Shown here: positions 7,352 to 48,302 of the stretch, piece by piece
Layout: each line of letters starts with the position of its first letter
How positions within the stretch are numbered: position 1 is the first letter of the stretch
Origin: Candidatus Woesearchaeota archaeon
Lineage (GTDB): Archaea; Nanobdellota; Nanobdellia; Woesearchaeales; SKGA01
DNA length: 50,784 nt
Assembly: GCA_021734105.1 (NCBI GenBank)
Contig: JAIPJP010000006.1
Coordinates: 1 to 50,784 of the forward strand
Direction: 5' to 3'
Notes under the pieces: model-generated
What the model was told of the DNA's origin: nothing
Database searches by the model: none
The model's input: only the letters and a program-made list of their open reading frames with translations
Translations under genes and position numbers: made by a program

Positions 7352-7960
7352 ATGAAAAAAATAATTCTTCTCGGACTCTTGAGCGTATTAATTATTCTTG
7401 CTGGCTGTACAAGCTATTCCTCACAAGATATTCCTCAAATTCCTAGTGAATGCGAGTTAGAAACTGACTTCACAAAAGGCTCGCAGTATCCTCAGCTACT
7501 CTTCGGAAAAATGTATACCTGCATTATTGAAGATAGTGGTGTCGTCATCTCACAAATGTTGATTAAGCCACTAAAAAAGAATATTTTTGAAGAAGAATTT
7601 GCCAGAAGTGTTATTGCATCTACTGAACCTCAGCAATACGATGAGTTAGAAGGATTTGAATTATTAGAAGATGAAACTATCAGCTGCAAAAACAAAATCT
7701 ATCGATATAACACTATTAAATCACCCCCTCATGAAGAGCCAGAAATACAACCTGGTTGGACATATGAAGAACCTAAGCAATTAGCGCATGTAGACAAAAA
7801 GAGCCTTACCGAACAACTTCCTCTAATGGATAGCTCATTTCAGATAATCGACAATAATTTATTTATCGTTATTCACTCAACATATCCTGCAAACGAGATC
7901 ATTCCAGAATATGAAGCAATAACTGTTGCTAAAGAAATGGGTTTACTCTGTGAAGAATAA
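7352..7960 (+). CDS. Hypothetical lipoprotein
   Basis: 202 residues. The N-terminus is a bacterial-style lipoprotein signal: MKK, a hydrophobic stretch, then the lipobox LAGC with Cys at about residue 19. The mature part contains several cysteines (in SECELE, YTCIIE, SCKNK, LLCEE) that could form disulfides, and is Glu-rich with no known domain. It should be exported and anchored to the outside of the membrane by a lipid on the Cys. The window also encodes a signal peptidase II (42328-42765), the enzyme that would cleave such a signal. Ligand and function are unknown. It is transcribed divergently from cdc6. Confidence 0.75.
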   Translation: MKKIILLGLLSVLIILAGCTSYSSQDIPQIPSECELETDFTKGSQYPQLLFGKMYTCIIEDSGVVISQMLIKPLKKNIFEEEFARSVIASTEPQQYDELEGFELLEDETISCKNKIYRYNTIKSPPHEEPEIQPGWTYEEPKQLAHVDKKSLTEQLPLMDSSFQIIDNNLFIVIHSTYPANEIIPEYEAITVAKEMGLLCEE

Positions 7961-9839: not shown

Positions 9840-10724
9840 ATGAAAAGCAAGTTATTGCTAATAACAATGTGCATTATACTTTTTAGTGCAAGTTCTGCTC
9901 TCGCGCTTGTGGGCTCTTGTAACAATCAAAATAACTTTGAGACGCTCGTTTGCGGCGGAACTCCTAATAGCGTGAGTGGTTTTGGCGCAGTAGAAATCTG
10001 CGGCAATTGTTATCCTTGTGGGCAGGCCGACGGCATATGCCCTGAAGACTTCTATTCTACAGTTACACAAATGCAAGGTAATTGCAGACTTTGCCCCGAT
10101 CCTGATTGTCCAGCGACAATTAAAGGATATGTGTTTGAAAAAGGCATAGAAGTGCCAAATGCAGAAATTATTACTACATACAACGGCCAAGGAGCAATTG
10201 AAGAAGTAGATAAAATTAATAAGACGAATACAAGCGGACAGTACACAGGCAGCATTCCGGCTGGCAAGCATAAGATGTTCATCCAATTTGGTTCATTTAA
10301 AAGTCCCACACAAATTGTGGAAATTAATCGCGGGGAAAATAAAGAAATAAATTTCACCATTAATAGAGGTTCTTGTAACGCTGATTGTACCATTGGAAGC
10401 ACAGGCCTTTGTAGTGCTAATTGCAATAATCAAGAAGGATGTGTATTTCCCGAAAATACAACCATTGATAGTTCATTAACATCTGAATTCATTGCAAGCA
10501 AATGCGATAGTTTAGAAGGTGGAACAAGTATTCTTAATCTAGGTGAGTTTAATAATGAAGTTCACCGAATAACTTGTTGCACAGGACCATATCAAAAAAC
10601 AACAGTAATTAAAGCACAAGTCGGCGCATCAATTAAATCAAAAATAAAAAGTTCTTCTGGCTGGAATACACCTGTTATCCTTTCTGATGAACCACTCATT
10701 CTAAAAGTTTTATTTGGAAAATAA
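9840..10724 (+). CDS. Secreted Cys-rich protein with carboxypeptidase-regulatory-like domain
   Basis: 294 residues. A Sec signal peptide (MKSKLLLITMCIILFSASSA, cleavage near residue 23) marks export. The mature protein begins with a Cys-rich segment (CGNCYPCG, CRLCPDPDCP), followed by a beta-sandwich segment of carboxypeptidase-regulatory/CNA-B type at about 97-178 (ATIKGYVFEKGIEVPNAEI, TSGQYTGSIPAGKHKMFIQF). A second Cys-rich part (CNADCTIGSTGLCSANC, ITCCTG) follows. Paired cysteines suggest disulfide stabilisation outside the cell. No C-terminal anchor is seen. A TATA box at 9809-9818 gives a leaderless or near-leaderless start. Precise role unknown; surface adhesion or envelope structure is plausible. 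Confidence 0.75.
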   Translation: MKSKLLLITMCIILFSASSALALVGSCNNQNNFETLVCGGTPNSVSGFGAVEICGNCYPCGQADGICPEDFYSTVTQMQGNCRLCPDPDCPATIKGYVFEKGIEVPNAEIITTYNGQGAIEEVDKINKTNTSGQYTGSIPAGKHKMFIQFGSFKSPTQIVEINRGENKEINFTINRGSCNADCTIGSTGLCSANCNNQEGCVFPENTTIDSSLTSEFIASKCDSLEGGTSILNLGEFNNEVHRITCCTGPYQKTTVIKAQVGASIKSKIKSSSGWNTPVILSDEPLILKVLFGK

Positions 10725-16954: not shown

Positions 16955-17347
16955 TTATTGAAAAGTGTAATTAGGAACTTTCTTCACGATTTCTTTATCA
17001 ACGCTTTGCATGAATCGATACACGCTTGCTTTGAGTTCTTCGAGTTGATCAGATAACGCCATAAAAAGAGTTTTGTCGATATATTGCAAGTCATAGGCCA
17101 ACATAAGAAGCACTTCAACTTCTCGACAGCTTCCATAACTATATTGCAAGTGATTAAAAAATACCTTATTTGACACGTTACTTGCTCCTTCAACAATATT
17201 TAAAACGATGCTTGTCCCTGCACGTTGGAGTTGAGAAAACATGTTGCGCTGTTCGGTGTCAGGTAGCAAGGACAAGACATCATAAATCTCCAAGAGAAAC
17301 GAATAAGATAAATGAAAAATTTTTAATTTCTTAAAATTTCTTCCCAT
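16955..17347 (-). CDS. Four-helix-bundle (23S rRNA IVS-type) protein
   Basis: 130 residues. It fits the family of small proteins encoded in intervening sequences of bacterial 23S rRNA and in scattered genes: FKKLKIFHLSY at the start, LPDTEQRNMFSQLQRAGTSIVLNIVEGASN, FFNHLQYSYGSCREVEVLLMLAYDLQYI. The bacterial structures form pentameric four-helix bundles with a proposed nucleic-acid role; function is unsettled. Here it lies only 0.4 kb from the 3' end of 23S and on the same strand, downstream of it, though not inside the rRNA. A TATA-like CTTTTAACC (about 17370-17379) gives it its own leaderless promoter, and a cluster of TCGAAA-type inverted repeats lies just upstream. Confidence 0.88.
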   Translation of the reverse strand: MGRNFKKLKIFHLSYSFLLEIYDVLSLLPDTEQRNMFSQLQRAGTSIVLNIVEGASNVSNKVFFNHLQYSYGSCREVEVLLMLAYDLQYIDKTLFMALSDQLEELKASVYRFMQSVDKEIVKKVPNYTFQ

Positions 17348-17740: not shown

Positions 17741-17757
17741 TAAATACAAAAAGTACG

Positions 17758-20635
<2,878 letters not shown>

Positions 20636-20654
20636 TTATTTGTAGTAAACATTG

Positions 20655-21007: not shown

Positions 21008-21127
21008 TGGACTCATCGGGATTCGAACCCGAGGCCCCCGCCTATCTTGACAGAACGTTAAATTCTGATAATCAGAAAATTGTTCTGCGTGCAAGGGCGG
21101 TGCTCTACCGGACTGAGCTATGAGCCC
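21008..21127 (-). tRNA. tRNA-Ala (anticodon TGC) with a 46-nt intron
   Basis: The cloverleaf closes on all arms: acceptor GGGCTCA/TGAGTCC with G3-U70, the alanine identity pair; D-arm GCTC/GAGC; anticodon stem CCGCC/GGCGG; T-arm TCGGG/CCCGA with TTCGAAT loop; discriminator A. The anticodon TGC lies at 21091-21093. Exons are 21090-21127 and 21008-21043, intron 21044-21089. CCA is not encoded. Its place between 16S and 23S is usual for archaeal rRNA operons; an intron in this tRNA is not. Confidence 0.95.
21044..21089 (-). other. tRNA-Ala intron at 37/38 with canonical bulge-helix-bulge
   Basis: Exon bases CTTG (positions 32-35) pair with CAAG near the intron 3' end, giving the 4-bp central helix. 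On each side is a 3-nt bulge: CA|C at the 5' site and AT|A at the 3' site, both cut after the second base. The outer helix is the anticodon stem and the inner helix is GCAGAAC/GTTCTGT, capped by TTCTGA/TCAGAA. This is the exact substrate form of the archaeal tRNA-splicing endonuclease. Confidence 0.93.
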
Positions 21128-21234: not shown

Positions 21235-22700
<1,466 letters not shown>

Positions 22701-41368: not shown

Positions 41369-41391
41369 AGCAACCTTTGTTTCGTAGCATT

Positions 41392-41760
41392 ATGCCACCA
41401 CCTAAACGACCAGCACCAAGAAAACCTATGAGTCCTGAAGATAGAGCTCAAATGGAAGCTGAAGAAGTACGTAGAGTTCGCCTTCCTAAAGGTGAAGAAA
41501 CTATTGGCTTACTCATGGCTCGGTTAGGCGGTAGTCGTTGTCGCGTACAATGCCTTGATGGTAAAGAGCGTATTTGTCGTATCCCAGGAAAACTAAAGCG
41601 TTATTTATGGGTGCGAGAAAATGATATTGTGCTCGTACAACCATGGGAGTTTGGTGGCGATGAAAAAGGAGATATTATTTTCAAATATCGACCTGTACAG
41701 GCTAAGTGGCTTAGAAACAAAGGTTATCTTGATGAGCTTGAAAGTCAAGACGAATTCTAA
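41392..41760 (+). CDS. eif1A: Translation initiation factor aIF1A
   Basis: 122 residues. aIF1A sits in the A site of the small subunit, guides start selection and recruits aIF5B. The OB-fold is clear: EEVRRVRLPKGEETIGLLMARLGGSRCRVQCLDGKERICRIPGKLKRYLWVRENDIVLVQPWEF, followed by GDIIFKYRPVQAKWLRNKGYL. The N-terminus is Pro/Arg/Lys-rich and unstructured. The TATA box at 41360-41368 gives a leaderless start. Its functional partner aIF5B is encoded 7 kb downstream in the same direction. A minus-strand gene converges on it, 16 nt from its stop. Confidence 0.96.
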   Translation: MPPPKRPAPRKPMSPEDRAQMEAEEVRRVRLPKGEETIGLLMARLGGSRCRVQCLDGKERICRIPGKLKRYLWVRENDIVLVQPWEFGGDEKGDIIFKYRPVQAKWLRNKGYLDELESQDEF

Positions 41761-41776
41761 AAAACATATTCTCAAT

Positions 41777-42331
41777 TTATAATTCATACTGAAAAATTTC
41801 ACCATTTCTTGGATGACCAGCAAATTCAGCTGCATAGACTTCTTCATCACTCATACCTAAAAGAAATGTTTTCATAGCATGTATGGTTTGTCCATGTGAA
41901 ACAATCAGAACATTGTTTAGTTCATCTCGTTTGGCAAATAAATCTTGCAAGAATGAGCGTACACGGCTTTTAAGTTCTTGAAAACTTTCTGCATTTGGTG
42001 CTTTTTTTGTATACCAGTCAGCATCATAATATTGACGATATAATTCAAGTGGTAAATTATCAAAACCAGATATTCTTTCATCTATTCGAGAATCAATTTT
42101 TAAGGGTAATTCATGATATTGATTAATAATTGATGCTGTTTGTAGCGTACGATAGAGTTCTGAGACATAGACTTCATCAAAGTGAATATGGGCTAATTCT
42201 TCTGCTACTTGTTGTGCTTGTTCTTTTCCTTTTTTGGTTAAAAAAACGTGTGTTCCTGGCGACTCTGAACAGAGTTTAAGCACATTATAATTTGTTTCTC
42301 CATGTCGAATAATAAAAAGTTTCATTATCAA
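41777..42331 (-). CDS. Histidine phosphatase family protein
   Basis: 184 residues. The catalytic LFIIRHGETNYN motif (RHG) is at the N-terminus, the second conserved group is VSELYRTLQTASII (a nearby Arg), and the third is LIVSHGQTIHAM with the second catalytic His. Family members hydrolyse phosphate esters through a phospho-His intermediate; the substrate cannot be told (phosphoglycerate mutase, sugar phosphate or nucleotide types are possible). The gene overlaps the lspA stop by 4 nt (ATGA type), so it is the last gene of a minus-strand operon. Confidence 0.9.
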   Translation of the reverse strand: MIMKLFIIRHGETNYNVLKLCSESPGTHVFLTKKGKEQAQQVAEELAHIHFDEVYVSELYRTLQTASIINQYHELPLKIDSRIDERISGFDNLPLELYRQYYDADWYTKKAPNAESFQELKSRVRSFLQDLFAKRDELNNVLIVSHGQTIHAMKTFLLGMSDEEVYAAEFAGHPRNGEIFQYEL

Positions 42332-42765
42332 TCTCCTCGATCATCTCGCAAGACCATAATAATAGTTACAATAACACCTGTAACAATTGCAGCGTCTGCA
42401 AGATTAAAAACTGGCCAGATATGAAAATTTATCCAATCAATAACTCCTCCAACAAATATGCGATCAAATAAATTCCCTAAAATACCTCCCAATAATAATC
42501 CAATCCCTAAAAGATACTTTTTTTCTTGTTCCACATAATAAATTAAAAATCCTAAAGCAAAAAGACTAATAATAATAAAAATTATGTTAATCGCATTAAC
42601 GCTGTCAAATAAACTAAACAAGCTTCCCGTATTAATAATAAAGGTGATATCAACAATAGCGCCTGTTGTAAATAAATCGCCCAGTCGAACAACTAATTTA
42701 GTAAGTTGGTCTAAAACGAGCACGAGAAGTGCAAGGACAATATAACCTCGATATTGTTTTACCAT
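42328..42765 (-). CDS. lspA: Signal peptidase II (LspA)
   Basis: 145 residues with four membrane spans. LspA cuts lipoprotein signal peptides before the lipid-modified Cys. All five conserved blocks are visible: LDQLTKLVV, INTGSLFSLF, GGILGNLFDRIFVGGVIDWI and PVFNLADAAI. The two catalytic Asp lie in GNLFDR and FNLADA. LspA is essentially a bacterial enzyme and rare in archaea; the lipoprotein at 7352-7960, with a LAGC lipobox, is a natural substrate. The start overlaps the previous gene by 7 nt and the stop overlaps the phosphatase gene by 4 nt. Confidence 0.93.
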   Translation of the reverse strand: MVKQYRGYIVLALLVLVLDQLTKLVVRLGDLFTTGAIVDITFIINTGSLFSLFDSVNAINIIFIIISLFALGFLIYYVEQEKKYLLGIGLLLGGILGNLFDRIFVGGVIDWINFHIWPVFNLADAAIVTGVIVTIIMVLRDDRGD

Positions 42766-43316
42766 TTTTTTTGTTCGAGTTTTTCGAGTCGTTGACTAAT
42801 AGAAGAAAGTTCACTACGAATCGCGTCTAATTTAACGTCAATTACTTCTAATGAATGTGCTGTTGTTTTTCCTTGTGAAGTTGTTTGTTGTCCTCGAATC
42901 GGTTGTTCTTGTTGTTGAATATAATGCTGAGCAAGTTCTTGCCCTTTTGTTGATGAGGATGCAGCAGGAGAAGGTGTTGTTTGTTGTGACGAGAGCTGTT
43001 GTGAGGCTGTTGGTTGATGTTGCTGCTCTGGTGCATCATCTTCAAAAGGGGGAAGCCCAGTGAGATCATCTCCTGATCGTTCCATAAATGATGCAACCCC
43101 TGATGATGGCGTGCCTGATTGTTCAAATGAAGTAGAATTAGCAGGTGTCGAGGTTGCATGCGAGGAATCTGGCGATGAGGCATTTGGTAAAGCAGAAGCC
43201 CCTACATCCATTGTAGAATTCATCGCGTCTTGCATGGGTGGTAGCCCTGCTGTAAATGCTGGATCGTTAATATCAAAATCATCTTTTTTGTGAAAAATTT
43301 TACTTAAAAAACTCAT
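42759..43316 (-). CDS. Low-complexity protein with C-terminal coiled coil
   Basis: 185 residues from ATG 43316 (MSFLSKIFHKKDDFDI); a GTG at 43325 is also in frame but the ribosome site GGTGAG lies just before the ATG. The N-terminus is hydrophobic and basic, short, and could touch the membrane. The middle is Ser/Thr/Gln/Pro-rich and probably disordered. The C-terminal 35 residues form a heptad-like coiled coil (LEVIDVKLDAIRSELSSISQRLEKLEQ). It lies between a membrane protein and lspA with overlaps, so it belongs to the same operon. Function unknown; a scaffold or tether is plausible. Confidence 0.65.
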   Translation of the reverse strand: MSFLSKIFHKKDDFDINDPAFTAGLPPMQDAMNSTMDVGASALPNASSPDSSHATSTPANSTSFEQSGTPSSGVASFMERSGDDLTGLPPFEDDAPEQQHQPTASQQLSSQQTTPSPAASSSTKGQELAQHYIQQQEQPIRGQQTTSQGKTTAHSLEVIDVKLDAIRSELSSISQRLEKLEQKKW

Positions 43317-43337
43317 AGCTCTCACCTAATGTACTAG

Positions 43338-43685
43338 TTATTCTTCTTCTGTAATCGCATCAGACATGGTTATGTCTTCAATTAAAGCATCCGATACCTT
43401 ATCTAAGAGTTTCTCTCCAGTACCTTCTACAATCCGTATTGCTTGACCTGCAAGATTCATTGTTTGATTAGTTGTCATGTTTACTGCATCATTATCCGTT
43501 CCATTTGACTTATTAAGCAATCCATCAGTTGGTACACCTGCAAATTTCATCACAAGTAAAAACACAATAAGAAGTACTGCTGCAATAACTACTGCCTTTA
43601 AAACGCTCTTAAGAAGCTTAAAAAAGAGGATAAAAATAATAATAACTGCTAGCGCGACAATTCCAATGGTTAAAAGATCTGGCAT
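43338..43685 (-). CDS. Small membrane protein
   Basis: 115 residues from ATG 43685. Two hydrophobic spans near the N-terminus (LLTIGIVALAVIIIFILFFKLL; VLKAVVIAAVLLIVFLLVMKF) are joined by a short loop and followed by a polar tail of 60 residues. A TATA-like TTTTAAATAA (minus strand, centre near 43710) gives a leaderless start at 43685. It begins the minus-strand operon with the coiled-coil protein, LspA and the phosphatase; the next start is about 22 nt after its stop. No family recognised. Confidence 0.6.
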   Translation of the reverse strand: MPDLLTIGIVALAVIIIFILFFKLLKSVLKAVVIAAVLLIVFLLVMKFAGVPTDGLLNKSNGTDNDAVNMTTNQTMNLAGQAIRIVEGTGEKLLDKVSDALIEDITMSDAITEEE

Positions 43686-43727
43686 ACACCTCATAGCCTC
43701 ATTGTTATTTAAAAAGGTTTGGATAAG

Positions 43728-46631: not shown

Positions 46632-47504
46632 TTATTTTGGCAACGCGTTTTGACTGGTAAGTCTTCGCTCAGCCCGTCTTAAACGTCGGATACCGTTCTT
46701 TAGAGCCTTTCTCGTTGATTGTTCTCCTATTTTAATCATCTCCTTAACATGTTTACTTCGAATATCAAAGAAACTATAAGATTGAATAGGGGGTTCTATA
46801 AGAATAAGATTGTGTTTTTTAGTAGCTTGCTGTAAAATTCGTTTCGTTAATGCATGAGTCATTATCCGTACGCTATTTTGCAACACGTGAAATGCACTAG
46901 ATACACTAGTGATGGCCTGCCATCGCTCAGACACATCTACAACAATAATAACATCTAAACCCGGTGGCAAGAATTCTATAGGAATGGGTGAATAAAGTCC
47001 TCCGTCCGCATAGTATTGTGTACCAATTTTTTTAGGTGCGAATAGTCCTGGAACTGCAATACTTGCACCAAGTACTGGATGTAATTTTCCTCGATTAAAC
47101 GCTCGTACTTTCCCATTGTTAATATTTGTCGCAATAACTGTTAATGGTATGTTAAGATCTTTAAATGAGTTTACTTCTAAAATATTTAGAATGTGTCGTA
47201 TGAGCCTATCACCTTTCAAAAAACCTAATCCTTTTATGGTAAAATCTGCTAAAAGAAATGGATTTAAAGAAGTGAATTCTTCTTCAGCAACTAGAATTGA
47301 TTTTCCTGAAGCAACACATGTTCCAATAAGTGAACCAACTGAACAACCAGTAATGGCTACAGGAATGATGCCATATTCCTCTAAAACTTTAACAGCGCCA
47401 AGTTCTCCAAAACCGTGACCTCCGCCACCACTAAGAACTAATCCTACTCGTTTACTTTTTATCCAATCTAAATCTGCTGTTGTTAAATCGTTTTTTCTCA
47501 CCAT
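46632..47504 (-). CDS. Patatin-like phospholipase
   Basis: 290 residues. The lipase core begins VGLVLSGGGGHGFGELGAVKVLEEYGI, the oxyanion loop. The nucleophile motif GxSxG is ITGCSVGSLIG. The catalytic Asp is in the YADGGLYSPIP (DGG) motif. These enzymes release fatty acids from phospho- or glycolipids. The gene starts 12 nt after the rhomboid stop, so the pair is one operon at the membrane. Why an archaeon would need an ester-lipid hydrolase is unclear, as archaeal lipids are ether-linked; a host or acquired lipid substrate is possible (inference). Confidence 0.92.
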   Translation of the reverse strand: MVRKNDLTTADLDWIKSKRVGLVLSGGGGHGFGELGAVKVLEEYGIIPVAITGCSVGSLIGTCVASGKSILVAEEEFTSLNPFLLADFTIKGLGFLKGDRLIRHILNILEVNSFKDLNIPLTVIATNINNGKVRAFNRGKLHPVLGASIAVPGLFAPKKIGTQYYADGGLYSPIPIEFLPPGLDVIIVVDVSERWQAITSVSSAFHVLQNSVRIMTHALTKRILQQATKKHNLILIEPPIQSYSFFDIRSKHVKEMIKIGEQSTRKALKNGIRRLRRAERRLTSQNALPK

Positions 47505-47516
47505 CTCTACTCAACT

Positions 47517-48302
47517 TTAAATCTTCCCATATTTAAAATAATCGTCTAATTCATCTTTAGTAAGCTCAATAGTTTTTGAATAATCGGATGATTTTTTGTT
47601 CGTTGTTGAATTTGTTCGTGGTGGAGTATCTCCACGACCAAGATTTACCCGTACTGTTCGACGACCACTTCCAAATCCTTGTTGAGTAAATTTTTGAATA
47701 AACACCTTTTTTTTCTTTAGTAACCACCAGCCAAAAAGCAGTCCTACCGCCAACCCTCCAAGGTGAGCAACATGTGCAACACTGGATGCTGGGTTAAAAA
47801 GCCCGACAAAGTCTATTGTTGCAAATAAAATTCCTGCAGTTCTCATGCTCATTGGAATGACAAAAAAGAAGAGTACACGCAAGTTAGGCAACAACAATAT
47901 AACTAGACCAAGTATACCCATTATAGCGCCACTTGCACCAACTGCTGCAGCATCAGGCGTTCCTATCACATAACTATAACCAATGTAGGCTAGTGCTGCA
48001 ACGAGTCCAGCTAGAAAATATGCAAACCAAAATCTTTTTCTTCCAATTCTCGCTTCAATAAGCGGACCAAAAATCATAAGTGCATACATGTTAAAGAGTA
48101 AATGGCCAAAGCTGCCGTGAAGAAACATCGAAGTAAATATTCTCCATACTTCTCCTGCCACCACTTTGCTTGATATCAGCATAAGTAGTTTTTGAAAGCC
48201 AGGTATAAGTAATTGTAAAATGAAAAATACGATGTTTATCCCTAATAATACCAGCGTGGGACTTCTTGTTTTAATTACTTCTTGCTGACGTTTTACATTC
48301 AT
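47517..48302 (-). CDS. Rhomboid intramembrane serine protease
   Basis: 261 residues with six membrane spans. The catalytic Ser is in VGASGAIMG and the His in VAHVAHLGGLAVG. The first loop has WRIFTSMFLHGSFGHLLFNMYAL, the diagnostic rhomboid segment with His and Asn. A 65-residue polar tail follows the last span (KKKVFIQKFTQQGFGSGRR...), ending in an acidic helix. It cleaves membrane proteins inside the bilayer; substrates are unknown. The neighbouring patatin gene is in the same operon. A TATA-like CTTAAAAAG (minus strand, 48326-48334) fits a leaderless ATG. Confidence 0.93.
   Translation of the reverse strand: MNVKRQQEVIKTRSPTLVLLGINIVFFILQLLIPGFQKLLMLISSKVVAGEVWRIFTSMFLHGSFGHLLFNMYALMIFGPLIEARIGRKRFWFAYFLAGLVAALAYIGYSYVIGTPDAAAVGASGAIMGILGLVILLLPNLRVLFFFVIPMSMRTAGILFATIDFVGLFNPASSVAHVAHLGGLAVGLLFGWWLLKKKKVFIQKFTQQGFGSGRRTVRVNLGRGDTPPRTNSTTNKKSSDYSKTIELTKDELDDYFKYGKI

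Follow-up and report, generated by a model that had tools for sequence, protein, structure and literature searches.

A complete signal peptidase II gene on an archaeal contig, and a predicted Lgt-LspA lipoprotein pathway in Woesearchaeota

The lspA locus and its contig

The window, which is the whole stretch of 50,784 nucleotides that was analyzed from contig JAIPJP010000006.1 of a Candidatus Woesearchaeota genome (GCA_021734105.1, here G000), contains a gene for lipoprotein signal peptidase (lspA) within a short run of closely packed genes, complete ribosomal RNA genes, and an open reading frame for a predicted lipoprotein. The coordinates of these features are listed in Table 1.

Table 1. 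Features of the window, with positions counted from its first nucleotide
Feature	Position	Strand	Basis or remark
Predicted lipoprotein, 202 aa, orphan	7352..7960	+	N-terminus MKKIILLGLLSVLIILAGC
Lipobox LAGC	7397..7408	+	From translation; predicted lipidated Cys19 at 7406-7408
Archaeal 23S rRNA, complete	17743..20646	-	RF02540, 2554 bits, full length
Archaeal 16S rRNA, complete	21237..22699	-	RF01959, 1404 bits, full length
aIF1A, converges on lspA	41377..41760	+	PF01176, E 4.4e-19; neighbour in 4/4 family genomes
Histidine phosphatase, overlaps lspA end	41777..42331	-	PF00300, E 7.5e-34
lspA, lipoprotein signal peptidase (signal peptidase II), 145 aa	42328..42765	-	Profiles, solved structures, model
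Second catalytic Asp codon, D124 in FNLADAA	42394..42396	-	Alignment to FN.AD of solved LspA chains
First catalytic Asp codon, D101 in GNLFDR	42463..42465	-	Alignment to DR of solved LspA chains
Low-complexity protein with C-terminal coiled-coil-like (heptad-like) stretch ending KKW	42759..43325	-	Directly upstream of lspA
Small membrane protein at the head of the conserved lspA block	43338..43694	-	Same place in 4/4 family genomes

The product of lspA matched the profile PF01252 (Peptidase_A8) over its full length with 99.2 bits (E 3.2e-28), well clear of the profile cut-off of 25 bits, and its score against TIGR00077 (lspA) exceeded the NCBI equivalog cut-off (77.3 versus 73.95). The sequence matches among solved structures were LspA enzymes only (6ryo, 9emz, and 5dir). 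Both catalytic aspartates, D101 and D124, are unchanged in the 25 LspA sequences of the phylum that were aligned, and the same is true of D19, K23, N45, G97, N98, R102, D110, N121, and A123. An AlphaFold2 model built from 25 sequences (pLDDT 89.9) matched 5dir, 6ryo, and 6ryp with E values of 5e-9 to 4e-8 and TM scores of 0.75-0.80, and these three were the sole structure matches with E < 0.001. These results confirm that the open reading frame encodes a full LspA with both catalytic aspartates in place, and together with the archaeal rRNA genes on the contig they bear out the preliminary description of this DNA, which had reported a signal peptidase II with both catalytic aspartates in an archaeon. 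Like the bacterial LspA enzymes, the archaeal protein matches TIGR00077 and PF01252 along its whole length and above the curated cut-off, and the four-helix membrane fold, the pair of catalytic aspartates, and the other invariant residues are common to both. It differs from them in that its host is an archaeon and in that its identity to the solved enzymes is about 29-30% by structure alignment.

The contig that carries lspA is archaeal because the 16S and 23S rRNA genes that lie on it are complete and of the archaeal type. Other archaeal-type genes in the window encode Spt5, aIF1A, an IF-2/aIF5B-type GTPase, and Kae1/TsaD. Between the 23S and 16S genes there is a 120-base tRNA match (21008-21127), the length of which suggests that this tRNA carries an intron; ARAGORN made no call at that position. 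A small open reading frame (16955-17347, minus strand) is located downstream of the 23S gene, and its product presumably resembles a four-helix 23S intervening-sequence protein.

The neighbourhood of lspA was compared among the four genomes of the host's family. In all four, the order of the block is the small membrane protein, the low-complexity protein, and lspA, followed by aIF1A on the opposite strand. The LspA protein is 45-51% identical to those of the other family members, and since the arrangement is the same despite this degree of divergence, the gene block appears to be old. The presence of aIF1A as the neighbour in all four genomes likewise points to an old vertical linkage. The histidine phosphatase gene, which sits between lspA and aIF1A here, is missing from that place in the three relatives and is therefore considered to lie outside the conserved block. 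The reading frame of the low-complexity protein overlaps lspA by 7 bases, is a conserved partner in all four genomes, and had no match in Pfam; its product may be a partner in lipoprotein maturation.

Lgt and the lipobox proteins of the genome

Lipoprotein maturation begins with Lgt, which moves a glycerolipid from a phospholipid onto the lipobox cysteine on the outer side of the membrane; LspA then cuts the signal peptide before the lipidated cysteine by means of its pair of aspartates, and in many bacteria a third chain is added by Lnt. The preliminary description had correctly noted the absence of Lgt from the window. A search of the genome for Lgt-like proteins located the gene on another contig (C19:11-841, minus strand), and searches of the family detected it in all four genomes, each of which thus contains both lspA and lgt. 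The lgt contig also encodes TFB, beside lgt, and a TruB protein of the Cbf5 type that has DKCLD and PUA domains, and these two genes show it to be archaeal as well.

The Lgt protein matched PF01790 over its whole length with 221 bits (E 6e-66; cut-off 24.9), and it cleared the curated NCBI cut-off of TIGR00544 (191.9 versus 118.9). Its sole sequence relative among solved structures was E. coli Lgt (5azb, E 1.6e-34), and the model of the archaeal protein (pLDDT 89.2) matched the same structure with an E value of 5e-14. The residues important for Lgt in E. coli were taken from the available text of PMC4728403. Equivalents of E. coli Y26, H103, R143, N146, E151, G154, Y235, R239, and R246 are present in the Lgt of this genome, and among 35 Lgt sequences of the phylum the equivalents of R143, N146, N149, E151, G154, and R239 are unchanged, while those of H103 and Y26 are nearly so. 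The position of E. coli E243 is occupied by Asn in this genome and by Asn or Asp in all four family genomes; in the 35 phylum sequences the residue is Glu in 30, Asn in three, and Asp in two, and one of the 15 bacterial sequences also departs from Glu, with Thr. According to the same available text, the E. coli mutants in which E243 was replaced by Ala, Gln, or Arg fail to complement, and Asn is not among the E243 mutants described there (PMC4728403). The E243 site is better regarded as a residue that varies in a protein which is in all other respects a complete Lgt than as a feature that defines the profile.

In comparison with bacterial Lgt (TIGR00544, PF01790, and 5azb), the archaeal protein shows a whole-length match above the curated cut-off and the same fold, and both have the R143/N146/E151/G154 signature motif, the HGG and HPSQ motifs, and the two key arginines. 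The differences are the Asn or Asp that takes the place of E243 in this family and the nature of the cell, which appears not to make phospholipids. A cis-prenyltransferase gene (UppS-like; L003:15435-16118) is also found on the lgt contig, and its presence indicates that some polyprenyl lipid metabolism remains.

The protein encoded at 7352-7960 begins with a lysine-rich segment that is followed by a hydrophobic core and the LAGC motif, which together make a textbook lipobox signal peptide. A search of 144 further genomes of the order found no homologue of this protein. The preliminary description had presented it as the lipoprotein that matches LspA, a point that is weaker than it was put there: the lipobox has the standard form, but the protein is an orphan, and it is the YceI-like lipoprotein described below that has a conserved lipobox cysteine.

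Lipobox proteins were counted in 429 kb (about 40% of the genome), covered as stretches, using a simple signal-peptide rule in the form of a regular expression. The rule returned eight candidates with a lipobox cysteine, six of which look genuine. One candidate was rejected as a clear false positive with a Rossmann start (MGTKKSVLLIGAGFGGLATAC), and the candidate at 9840-10724 is doubtful. A seventh lipobox protein (L003:14104-14628), which has an internal start (MQFITNLFLLLIVCLFFITAC), was spotted by eye. The preliminary description had named a lack of other lipobox proteins or of a lipid transferase as evidence against a pathway; the genome proved to have Lgt, and no fewer than six additional lipobox proteins were found in the 429 kb. 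The lipobox proteins of this genome include a YceI-like protein (on contig C14) and a thioredoxin-like protein. Homologues of the YceI-like protein from three further families of the order are only 31-43% identical, yet each has kept a lipobox cysteine at its start (LVVAC, LISAC, and LLTAC), and all three genomes carry both Lgt and LspA. On another contig (C18), two predicted lipoproteins are encoded within 5 kb of each other (L097:1149-2189 and L097:4888-5634), with one weak match to a Cys-rich pacifastin-like domain.

Relatives that have neither Lgt nor LspA (G031 and G034) still have lipobox proteins. For this reason, and because the rule gave a false positive, the lipobox count was rejected as proof that Lgt is used; the census is consistent with the pathway.

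Distribution in the phylum and alternative explanations

The distribution of the two enzymes was determined in a sample of 371 genomes spread evenly over the phylum, 243 of which are of good quality. LspA was found in 243 of the 371 genomes (190 of the 243 good-quality ones), and Lgt was found in 251 (199 of the good-quality ones). Both enzymes were present in 228 genomes, LspA only in 15, Lgt only in 23, and neither in 105, which gives an odds ratio of 69 for their co-occurrence in a test that ignores the relatedness of genomes sharing ancestry and whose p-value is accordingly not to be relied on. Within the host's order, 170 of 199 genomes have both enzymes and three have neither, and in the part of the sample outside this order the corresponding numbers are 58 and 102 of 172. 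Both lspA and lgt were also found in four genomes that are each assembled into one contig (0.74-1.3 Mb; G004, G043, G073, and G076). The occurrence of both enzymes in most genomes of the order, together with the conserved synteny of lspA, argues for long retention under selection.

In the Lgt tree, the four sequences of the family form one clade (support 100/99) that adjoins a sequence of another Woesearchaeota genome (L065; 99/91). The bacterial Lgt sequences in this tree are plasmid-borne genes and genes of alphaproteobacteria, without Patescibacteria and most phyla, and the sampled proteobacterial sequences are nested within the archaeal ones; a single archaeal clade was rejected (p 0.02). 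It is possible, judging from this tree, that more than one transfer of Lgt has taken place. Plasmids were also searched for LspA, with no match.

The genome is a metagenome bin of 42 contigs and lgt lies at the end of its contig, as might be expected if the two genes had entered the bin as bacterial contamination or through chimeric assembly. However, full archaeal rRNA genes, Spt5, and aIF1A lie on the same contig as lspA, and the lgt contig has TFB and the Cbf5-type TruB. In addition, both genes recur in every genome of the family, with lspA among the same neighbours. Contamination is no explanation for genes that four single-contig genomes of the phylum also hold, and it was rejected as vanishingly improbable on the basis of the rRNA genes on the contig, the synteny, and the single-contig genomes. 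Recent and scattered horizontal gene transfer from bacteria, in which the acquired genes have no established role, would agree with the fact that the Lgt and LspA families are bacterial as far as known and with the position of the proteobacterial Lgt sequences inside the archaeal ones, where one archaeal clade is rejected. Such a transfer is nevertheless very unlikely, given that the four Lgt sequences of the family form a well-supported clade beside the other Woesearchaeota sequence, that both enzymes occur together in 170 of the order's 199 genomes, and that the lspA synteny is conserved.

A further explanation is offered by the archaeal Ali system. Archaeal lipoproteins have been reported to be widespread, and in Haloferax they are lipidated by AliA and AliB (PMC12186497, PMC13251419). 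If an Ali pathway lipidates the lipoproteins of this archaeon as well, then Lgt and LspA would have been recruited to another task, and the lipobox proteins of relatives without Lgt and the altered E243 site in the host's family would both fit such an arrangement. The other catalytic and lipid-binding residues of Lgt and LspA that were tested are, however, kept across the phylum, and the two enzymes travel together, as is expected of enzymes that carry out consecutive steps. Recruitment to another task is therefore unlikely, if less so than a scattered transfer. The lipobox cysteine of archaeal lipoproteins is the predicted target of lipidation here, as it is the target of AliA/AliB in Haloferax volcanii, but AliA and AliB reportedly share no homology with their bacterial counterparts (PMC13251419), while this phylum has homologues of the bacterial ones.

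The predicted pathway and its donor lipid

Having both enzymes, this archaeon very probably runs a two-step maturation of lipoproteins, Lgt and then LspA, without Lnt. In the first step, Lgt (C19:11-841) would put a glycerolipid on the lipobox cysteine of secreted precursors, and in the second step LspA (42328-42765) would use its two aspartates to cut off the signal peptide before the lipidated cysteine. The mature protein would then be anchored by its lipid on the outer side of the membrane and would not be N-acylated by Lnt. The N-terminal domain of Lnt (LNT_N) had no match in the genome and was present in 7 of 14 control genomes; because Lnt was not detected, the amino group of the cysteine is expected to stay free in the mature lipoprotein. 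The sequences show the two enzymes with their catalytic residues, a number of lipobox proteins, and vertical inheritance over a long time, and from these we infer that Lgt and LspA act on the lipobox proteins described here. The suggestion in the preliminary description that this DPANN lineage has a working bacterial-type lipoprotein pathway gains support from Lgt and the lipobox proteins, with activity predicted from sequence. Two observations weigh against it: Lgt has Asn at the E243 position, where changes are not tolerated in E. coli, and relatives that have neither enzyme also have lipobox proteins. Compared with the Lgt-LspA-Lnt pathway of diderm bacteria, the first two enzymes are common to both, but no N-terminal domain of Lnt was found in the archaeal genome.

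GGGP synthase catalyzes a first committed step towards archaeal lipids. It had no match in this genome, and neither did the CDP-alcohol phosphotransferases (PF01066), which were found in all 14 control genomes and occur in about half the genomes of the phylum. Since the genome is without both, its donor lipid is probably scavenged from another cell. One subgroup of Woesearchaeota has been reported to be without archaeal lipid synthases (PMC8421398). A genome of the same genus (G006) has one PF01066 match and G000 has none, so that the genes for phospholipid head groups differ within the genus. A link between GGGP synthase and Lgt was considered and rejected: the four genomes that match GGGP synthase best are without Lgt, but they lie outside the host's order, where most genomes lack Lgt.

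We suggest tentatively, as a serious possibility, that the glycerolipid transferred by the bacterial-type Lgt of the phylum is an archaeal ether lipid, derived for instance from archaetidylglycerol of an archaeal host, and that archaeol-modified lipoproteins are thereby formed in cells that do not make phospholipids. Alternatively, Lgt may use bacterial phosphatidylglycerol, which would reveal the presence of bacterial lipids in these archaea. Lgt would cross the lipid divide if its donor is an archaeal ether lipid, but not if the donor is a bacterial ester lipid. Since Lgt must accept whatever lipid is there, that lipid could be recognized from the specificity of Lgt or from the mass of the N-terminus of a native lipoprotein. 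The pathway may thus provide a handle on the membrane lipids of a host-dependent and largely uncultured archaeal phylum.

Recent papers state that Lgt does not exist in archaea. Among the papers listed by searches of the open PMC literature, DPANN genome papers included, none was seen to report Lgt in DPANN, and public records probably already label such genes through annotation pipelines. The enzymes described here belong to known families, and it is their broad presence in archaea that contradicts the published statements. In the phylum, Lgt and LspA are found in two thirds of the genomes that were sampled, in most cases together, which alters the view of where lipid anchoring occurs in the tree of life. 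The window also contains a gene for a patatin-like phospholipase that adjoins a rhomboid protease gene (46632-48302, minus strand), an arrangement that is of interest given the apparent uptake of lipids from elsewhere.
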